A stretch of 64,000 nt of DNA from Chondrosia reniformis (taxonomy: Eukaryota > Porifera > Demospongiae > Chondrillida > Chondrillidae), in NCBI GenBank assembly GCA_947172415.1, contig OX359200.1, positions 2,420,501-2,484,500 on the forward strand, in the 5' to 3' direction. The position numbers and the translations under genes were made by a program. Below, in pieces: positions 43,996 to 44,437 of the stretch. The notes under the pieces were generated by a model that made no database searches, had not been told where the DNA came from, and was given only the letters and a program-made list of their open reading frames with translations. Within the stretch, counting starts at the first letter, position 1. Each line of letters begins with the position of its first letter.

Positions 43996-44437
43996 AAAAA
44001 ATAGGGGAACTTTAAGATCTAAAGCCGATCTTTAAGCATCGATGTCATCATCATTTAACTCTGGGATTTAACCCTGCCCACTCATGTCCCCTGCGGAGCG
44101 CAATGAGCTAATGGGCGGAACCGAAGTTCGCTTGATGGGAACCAGAGTCTCCCCCTAGCCATTCAAAAAGATGGTCGAGCCATAGACAGCTGTTTCGTCC
44201 TTATTAGGACTCATCAGTATGGCATACGATGGAAGTTAGAGTGGCTAGTCTGCTAATAAATACTCCCAGAAGCTAAAAAGCTTGTGGTTTCCTTATCAGC
44301 AGATATGGGATACAGCCAAAAGTGTGGGTGACCACTAGTATGGAAAAAAAATATAAGTAATACCCAGAGTTAAATGATGATGGCATCGATGCTTTAAGAT
44401 CGGCTTTAGATCTTAAAGTTCCCCTATTTTTTTAAAT
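43996..44437. mobile_element. Foldback element, copy 2: 66-bp TIRs with a canonical hammerhead ribozyme inside
   Basis: The left end is ATAGGGGAACTTTAAGATCT and the right end is its reverse complement, AGATCTTAAAGTTCCCCTAT. Pairing continues inward over about 66 bp (AAAGCCGATCTTTAAGCATC ... to TTTAACTCTGGG). The interior holds the same landmarks as the 4.6 kb copy, and the HHR lies at 44179-44223. The inner right arm seen at 4.9 kb is deleted here. No protein is encoded. Its right end abuts the 65-bp satellite directly. Confidence 0.85.
44179..44223 (-). ncRNA. Hammerhead ribozyme, all conserved elements present
   Basis: On the minus strand the order is GCCATA, CTGATGA, GTCC-TAATAA-GGAC, GAA, ACAGCTGT, C, TATGGC. 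Stem I is a perfect 6-bp GCCATA/TATGGC. Stem II is a perfect 4-bp GUCC/GGAC with a 6-base loop. The CUGAUGA and GAA strands are intact. Stem III is the self-complementary ACAGCUGU, and the cleavage base is C17. Stem III is too short to close as a stable monomer hairpin but could pair between two copies. This is a type I arrangement. Confidence 0.85.

Follow-up and report, generated by a model that had tools for sequence, protein, structure and literature searches.

The locus and its element

We analysed a stretch of 64,000 nt from the sponge Chondrosia reniformis (assembly GCA_947172415.1, contig OX359200.1, positions 2,420,501 to 2,484,500 of the forward strand), referred to as the window, and within it a short element at 43995-44433 that carries a hammerhead ribozyme and is described here as a probable retrozyme. 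Unit coordinates (u) are window positions minus 43994, and ribozyme sense corresponds to the minus strand. The element is composed as follows:

43995..44349, minus strand: complete retrozyme unit of 355 nt, u1-u355; sibling loci such as L010 and L013 repeat it in tandem with a period of about 355
43995..44041, minus strand: 47-nt "tail" between two outer-end sites, u1-u47 (sibling outer ends lie mostly at u1-5 or u43-54)
44010..44036, minus strand: stem-loop within the tail, CTTTAAGATC / GATCTTTAAG; the window copy has lost one of its pairs
44042..44045, minus strand: no-tail end site (site B), u48-u51, not an end of the window copy
44179..44223, minus strand: type I hammerhead ribozyme with a two-pair stem III and a palindromic AGCU tetraloop cap (RF00163)
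44184..44185, minus strand: predicted self-cleavage site, after C17 (from the Rfam alignment position; u191 is G on the plus strand)
44358..44433, plus strand: second, inverted arm, a truncated unit of about u1-u76, source of the apparent terminal inverted repeat (TIR)

The unit has a GC content of 44.5%. The element contains no stop-to-stop frame of at least 120 aa, in agreement with an earlier note on this DNA, made from the sequence alone, which had described an element without protein. The same note had seen 66-bp TIRs. These are real as part of two inverted arms of 76 nt each (43995-44070 and 44358-44433; 95% complementary, 287 nt apart), but they are not a feature of the family: the inverted repeats of the window copy result from the short length of its second arm, about 76 nt. 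On its right side the element touches a 65-bp satellite of about 70 copies (44431-48948), which starts at the element's right end. Immediately to the left, a 19-nt inverted repeat with 89% complementarity lies within 43930-43988.

The hammerhead ribozyme

At the Rfam gathering threshold, a scan of the whole window with 4227 families, on which the E value is based, returned a single match. This is Hammerhead_1 (RF00163) on the minus strand at 44223-44179 (37.1 bits, cut-off 34; E = 1.1e-5), which covers model positions 1-45 of 45. All pieces named in the earlier note are present, i.e., GCCATA/TATGGC, CTGATGA, GTCC/GGAC, GAA, ACAGCTGT and C17, and its claim of a complete hammerhead stands. The C. 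reniformis assembly (117.38 Mb, 15 contigs) yielded at least 73 hammerhead matches, at least 51 of them over the cut-off (73 of 11,921 candidates scored), compared to none over the cut-off in 14 control genomes. The presence of the hammerhead thus exceeds chance.

The expectation that the ribozyme be better conserved than the rest of the element holds to a modest extent. Across u50-300, variability is lowest in 45-nt windows with starts at u184-189, which coincide with the ribozyme (u185-229), and the mean minor-letter frequency over the same range is 2.7% in the ribozyme region versus 4.3% outside, a modest difference. Of 75 ribozyme copies, a number that includes duplicated loci and L053 twice, 64 have retained every core residue. 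Exchanges that retain stem pairs were found for pair 1-45 (GC to AT in L048, L050 and L051), pair 15-26 (TA to CG in L048 and L051) and pair 5-41 (TA to CG in L048), where the counts again include duplicated loci and have few independent events behind them.

L048 and L051 (1500-1740) represent a second hammerhead element type, with approximately 240 bp in common at 81% identity. This type resembles the first family in the ribozyme only, and compensatory stem changes are present in it.

The family in the genome

A search of the genome with 43995-44433 gave at least 167 matching pieces (40 of 1111 candidates scored). Two sets of loci were evaluated. Set 1 comprises 38 fetched loci and the window, which were resolved into 40 elements; a divergent 74-nt piece (L030b) was dropped before counting. 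Its loci were picked by match length, which favours long arms. Set 2 comprises 18 loci reached via hammerhead matches (11 + 7) and two further copies in the window, while L048 and L051, which match the unit in the ribozyme only, were excluded. The two further copies have the following parts:

4545..4900, minus strand: second copy, full unit, 88% identical, with a degenerate hammerhead (RF00163 just 19.6 bits at 4771-4733)
4903..5017, plus strand: inverted arm of the second copy, u49-u163, terminating at the no-tail site
27329..27488, no strand assigned: third, fragmentary copy, arm u4-u58 followed by inverted u196-u123

The third copy has TATAATAAGTAG repeated on both sides, as seen by eye, and no Rfam match was found in it.

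The tandem forms that the earlier note had in mind do occur in sibling loci: head-to-tail units of 355 nt are present in L010, L011, L013, L024, L033 and others, and the window copy has a single full unit. The second recurrent arrangement is an inverted one. In set 1, 29 of the 40 elements are two-armed, with an antisense arm followed by a sense arm, and the remaining 11 are one-armed; the reverse order does not occur. The ribozyme-sense 3' ends are directed outward in all 29 two-armed elements. Set 2 shows the same antisense-then-sense order in 11 of its 20 members (11 of the 12 loci with mixed orientation) and one arm in eight, while L096 reads antisense-sense-antisense; its first piece may derive from the palindromic tail.

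The two opposite arms of one insertion carry common source variants. Within a locus they are 96.4% alike (24 comparisons), versus 93.7% between loci, and they agree at diagnostic sites in 292 of 325 comparisons, versus 70% between loci.

Many flanks consist of minisatellite sequence, and BLAST clustering of the flanks lumps 20 of the 40 elements of set 1 into one cluster. For this reason, duplicates were removed by hand, i.e., elements sharing both inner junctions and flanks. This concerns 11 of the 40 elements (L015, L019a, L021, L023, L025 and L026 as duplicates of L014; L019b, L027, L028 and L036 of L022; L042 of L038) and leaves 29 independent insertions. Loci L014, L015, L019, L021-L023, L025-L028 and L036, located on contigs C8, C9 and C12, have inner junctions and flanks in common, and these retrozyme-bearing segments are probably insertions duplicated within minisatellite.

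Outer ends and target site duplications

Outer ends fall predominantly on two sites. In 22 of the 40 elements of set 1, an end at u1-5 (tail end) is paired with an end at u43-54 (no-tail end). Among the 20 two-armed independent insertions, 15 have mixed ends, one has u1 on both sides (the window copy), one has the no-tail site on both sides, and three have one end elsewhere. Where both ends lie on the two sites, they are mixed in 15 of 17 cases, which exceeds one half (p = 0.002). In set 2, 24 of 32 outer ends lie on the two sites, and L049 is nearly tail/tail with ends at u3 and u9. The no-tail end is a GAT-type repeat, which is longer in L010. At the tail end, the sense strand is rich in T. 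For the tail stem-loop of the window copy, the predicted fold reaches z = -1.9, with 9 of 200 shuffles folding equally well.

Target site duplications (TSDs) of at least 8 bp surround 18 of the 29 independent insertions, versus 1.7% of 812 swapped flank pairs, and the mean flanking direct repeat is 8.6 bp, versus 4.0 bp in the swapped pairs. The length of the duplications is variable (8-14 bp in the siblings).

Inner arm ends and the RNA template

All arms that start at either of the two sites were analysed for their inner ends, 70 in total (46 from set 1, 24 from set 2). Of the 46 arms in set 1, 17 end at u346-355, the start of the tail arm, and 16 at u36-85, close to the other start or slightly beyond it. 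Overall, these two zones hold the inner ends of 40 of 70 arms, with 33 of 46 from set 1 and 7 of 24 from set 2. None of the 70 ends in the zone u185-195, where reverse transcription would run off a ribozyme-cut RNA, and the longest arms reach 818 nt. The template was therefore hardly a linear monomer cut by the ribozyme, and we rejected this candidate. Since arms pass the cleavage site and exceed one unit, the template should be either a circle or an uncut multimer. Many arms stop at start sites, which favours the circle: a circular RNA is probably the template, while an uncut multimer pausing at the start region is possible. The predicted fold of the 355-nt circle is better than the average of 100 shuffles (z = -3.6), with 58% of its positions predicted to be paired. 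In L009, L020, L038 and L043, both arms jointly cover about one circle.

Penelope-like elements of the same genome

The window also contains pieces of Penelope-like elements (PLEs) with reverse transcriptase (RT) fragments and pseudo-long terminal repeats (pLTRs):

5169..7666, minus strand: PLE with an RT fragment (5759-6430) and a 3' pLTR, matching other PLE loci
8382..9031, plus strand: PLE piece whose RT fragment is opposite in direction, head-to-head with the RT of 5169-7666
5225..5251, minus strand: minimal PLE hammerhead, CTGATGA...GAAACGT, found by pattern
7767..7792, minus strand: minimal PLE hammerhead in a second PLE piece, found by pattern
22351-22378 (plus strand) and 33202-33228 (minus strand): two more minimal PLE-type hammerhead patterns with different downstream sequence

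The RVT_1 match of the first fragment (E = 4e-6, 27.1 bits) lies below the Pfam cut-off of 29.6, and that of the second (E = 8e-8, 32.7 bits) above it. With the fragment 5759-6430 (minus strand) as query, 150 RT places in the genome were listed (150 of 550 candidates scored). Neighbouring RT pairs among these places are predominantly head-to-head, i.e., 20 of 23 pairs within 3.5 kb (2 tandem, 1 tail-to-tail) and 21 pairs within 6 kb (3 tandem, 2 tail-to-tail). Three PLE pairs were fetched. Their inverted arms measure 1.5-2.1 kb and are 99.7-99.9% identical; in L091 one PLE end is 36 nt longer than the other. The pair in L089 (777-2862 and 3283-5368) has 2.1-kb arms and is probably recent, because the arms are 99.9% identical and carry open frames of 646 and 812 aa.

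Minimal hammerheads of the CTGATGA...GAAACGT type occur four times in the window and, by pattern search, in 10 of the 14 PLE loci other than that of the window, among which L081, L082 and L089 overlap. Rfam at a lax threshold found no hammerhead in 13 PLE loci, and neither did a stricter pattern. When PLE ends were compared with retrozyme ends, the similarity was marginal: L079 scored 23, with the 99th percentile of random segments at 22; its relatives within the window scored 14 and 12, and other ends 11-19. The flanks of all three PLE pairs and of 9 of the 29 retrozyme insertions contain at least two ACTAGT minisatellite words, compared to none of 2000 random 300-bp stretches of this window; for L090, the left border is known only roughly.

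Mode of insertion

The copies are mirrored and two-sided like those of Penelope-type retrotransposons, which suggests PLEs as movers. We consider it probable that the element is a non-autonomous animal retrozyme of the type without long terminal repeats (non-LTR), with a unit of 355 nt, and that it is moved by the machinery of the sponge's own PLEs. A retrozyme-like life cycle, which the earlier note had raised as one of two options, is supported by the tandem 355-nt units, the target duplications, the lack of protein and the type I hammerhead.

The unit would be transcribed from the ribozyme-sense strand, and the hammerhead would cut multimers into 355-nt monomers, which would be closed to circles. 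A PLE enzyme would then make a staggered break; the break itself is visible as the duplications around the siblings. Both broken ends would prime reverse transcription inside the RNA at either of two fixed sites 47 nt apart which, judged by the end positions, flank a stem-loop. Two cDNAs would extend inward and be joined, leaving the unequal head-to-head arms observed. Such priming at the two ends of a staggered break would be expected to leave fixed outer ends together with inward-facing arms. In the window copy, one full-unit arm and one arm of about 76 nt would produce the foldback look.

In a more specific version, which we put forward tentatively and do not regard as the likelier course of events, two PLE enzymes would work on one 355-nt circular RNA, such that each copy is the frozen two-sided reverse transcription of a single circle and making this circle is the job of the ribozyme. 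The first break end would prime at the tail site, the second would be forced to the other site 47 nt away, and each cDNA would travel round the circle until reaching a start site. This version is based on the mixed ends (15 of 17), the arm stops (40 of 70), the four insertions that cover one circle and the lack of run-off ends (0 of 70).

Several observations weigh against the proposed origin. The window copy has no target duplication; since it also abuts the satellite, its junction may be rearranged. Likewise, 11 of the 29 independent insertions have no duplication of 8 bp. Among the listed hammerhead matches, 23 of 73 lie outside all fetched loci and hence outside our counts, and 13 of 41 distinct ribozymes have a non-standard pair at stem position 5-41. 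On the side of the PLEs, no clear sequence is common to the retrozyme ends and any compared PLE, one PLE arm in L090 ends within the coding region, outside any pLTR, and the GIY-YIG domain of L089 was read by eye only, without Pfam recognition. A lizard PLE with a mutated, dead ribozyme inserts equally well in vitro (PMC11167929), and the ribozyme therefore need not be part of insertion. As for the inner arm ends, the length-based choice of set 1 weakens the stop-site pattern that favours the circle. Of the 24 arms in set 2, just 2 end at u346-355 and 5 at u36-85, compared to 9 at u243-258, directly 5' of the ribozyme. Furthermore, the count excludes arms that start elsewhere, namely 3 of 49 in set 1 and 8 of 32 in set 2; the inner end of one of these lies at u196.

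In L047, L049, L053, L057, L058, L059, L092, L094, L097 and L033, arms end at u243-258, a third preferred zone that could be an RNA 5' end.

Alternative explanations

The same retrozyme might instead be moved by an L1-like enzyme of a long interspersed nuclear element (LINE) through ordinary twin priming, with the 5' inversion lying between the TSDs. Twin priming produces inversions in head-to-head order with TSDs, and short simple repeats form the end of some LINEs. Here the no-tail end is a GAT-type repeat, and the family is short and protein-less like short interspersed elements (SINEs). However, one outer end left by twin priming is the fixed 3' end and the other a variable internal point, whereas 22 of 40 elements have a fixed site at each outer end. 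Instead of poly-A, the sense strand has a T-rich sequence at the tail end, and the PLEs of this genome have the same architecture, in a comparison limited to PLEs. We therefore regard a LINE as an unlikely mover.

Self-priming (snap-back) of one cDNA, as proposed for the palindromes of rotifer PLEs (PMC3846280), could also generate inverted arms. It would agree with four of the 20 two-armed independent insertions (L012, L022, L030a and L046), in which the two arms meet at unit positions no more than 10 nt apart. The arms of the other 16 meet at unrelated positions, and a snap-back predicts no fixed site at the far end, which here is usually the other one. This origin of the arms is improbable and was rejected on the 16 unrelated meeting points.

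A solo pLTR, left behind by an autonomous PLE that has the 355-nt unit as its pLTR, would account for the tandem and inverted arrangement, which is that of pLTRs, and in the window the copy at 4545-5017 adjoins the PLE at 5169. Yet among the 15 PLE loci compared (L077-L091), drawn from the 150 RT places listed, a clear match to the unit occurs in L077 only, the window's own locus; L084 and L091 give 18-nt matches with E = 0.76. The match in L077 is a separate, neighbouring head-to-head copy outside the PLE end, and the PLE pLTRs of this genome bear the different, minimal hammerhead. Such a remnant is very improbable, and the sole clear match being a separate copy led us to reject it.

The first option of the earlier note, a TIR-bearing foldback element with a self-cleaving hairpin transcript, i.e., a DNA element resembling miniature inverted-repeat transposable elements (MITEs), moved by a transposase and with the hammerhead captured between its arms, has the least in its favour and was rejected, since the 76-nt inverted ends speak for it in the window copy alone, whereas the siblings have unequal ends, tandem units, variable truncation (the arms are variably truncated second copies of the unit) and duplications of varying length, with mixed ends in 15 of 20 insertions and u1 on both sides in one of 20, the window. 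Overall, the interpretation given in that note is partly supported.

Comparison with known systems

Animal retrozymes consist of tandemly repeated units with type I hammerheads and are expressed as circular RNA, and PLEs have been named as their likely movers (PMC7229834, PMC7761336). According to a 2020 review, their repeats have no conserved motif that would reveal the autonomous partner retrotransposon, and PLEs are named as just likely (PMC7761336, PMC7229834). The sponge family shows four features of the metazoan non-LTR retrozymes described by Cervera and de la Pena (2020, PMC7229834), namely a type I hammerhead, tandem repeats of approximately 150-450 bp, no protein together with a GC content under 50%, and TSDs of more than 4 bp; the lack of an open reading frame (ORF) is likewise shared (PMC7761336). 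Head-to-head arms and two fixed end sites, which are present here, are unmentioned in the part of PMC7229834 used for comparison, and the words "sponge" and "Porifera" are absent from its main text. Plant LTR retrozymes are also non-autonomous and hammerhead-bearing, with a circular RNA template proposed (PMC4918200), but they have type III hammerheads, LTRs and 4-bp duplications (PMC7229834), while the sponge element is best described as type I.

PLE inserts carry an inverted pLTR, most often head-to-head, with duplications of 8-10 bp in some copies only, and one of the two inverted pLTRs may bear a tail of 31 bp (PMC3846280). Both strands are cut and extended by the protein of the lizard PLE, and internal reverse transcription starts at two sites that delimit the tail (PMC11167929). 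The sponge element thus has in common with endonuclease-containing PLEs (PMC3846280, PMC11167929) the head-to-head direct and inverted copies, short TSDs in part of the copies, and an optional tail of tens of bp on one inverted end, which measures 47 nt in the sponge and about 30-40 in PLEs. Unlike PLEs, it has no ORF, a canonical instead of a minimal hammerhead and a unit of 355 nt. Because it has no ORF, it is not an autonomous PLE, although its insertion resembles that of a PLE.

Both retrozymes and the anatomy of PLEs are already known, and PLEs have been proposed as movers, in the papers considered without structural evidence. The new part is the structural link, found in a sponge, between retrozymes and two-sided priming of the PLE type. 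Among the papers listed in literature searches, titles and abstract openings report neither inverted retrozyme insertions nor retrozymes of sponges, which is weak evidence of absence. In this sponge, the anatomy of the insertions itself bears the mark of PLE-type integration. The copies are also informative on the integration of PLEs, as they resemble in vivo products of the two-ended break priming that one study describes in vitro (PMC11167929).

Other features of the window

The segment 16314-18836 is a tandem array of higher GC content, with approximate periods of 96, 203, 294 and 490 bp. DDE transposase fragments were recognised by Pfam DDE_1 in 49921-50328 and 55028-55459, and a weak Tc5 helix-turn-helix match below its cut-off lies in 54666-55163. 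By eye, the frames 60040-60402 (no Pfam match) and 60499-60873 resemble DDE fragments as well. The open frames 20993-21391 and 35415-35780, located on opposite strands and without Pfam match, are alike by eye and probably belong to another repeat family.
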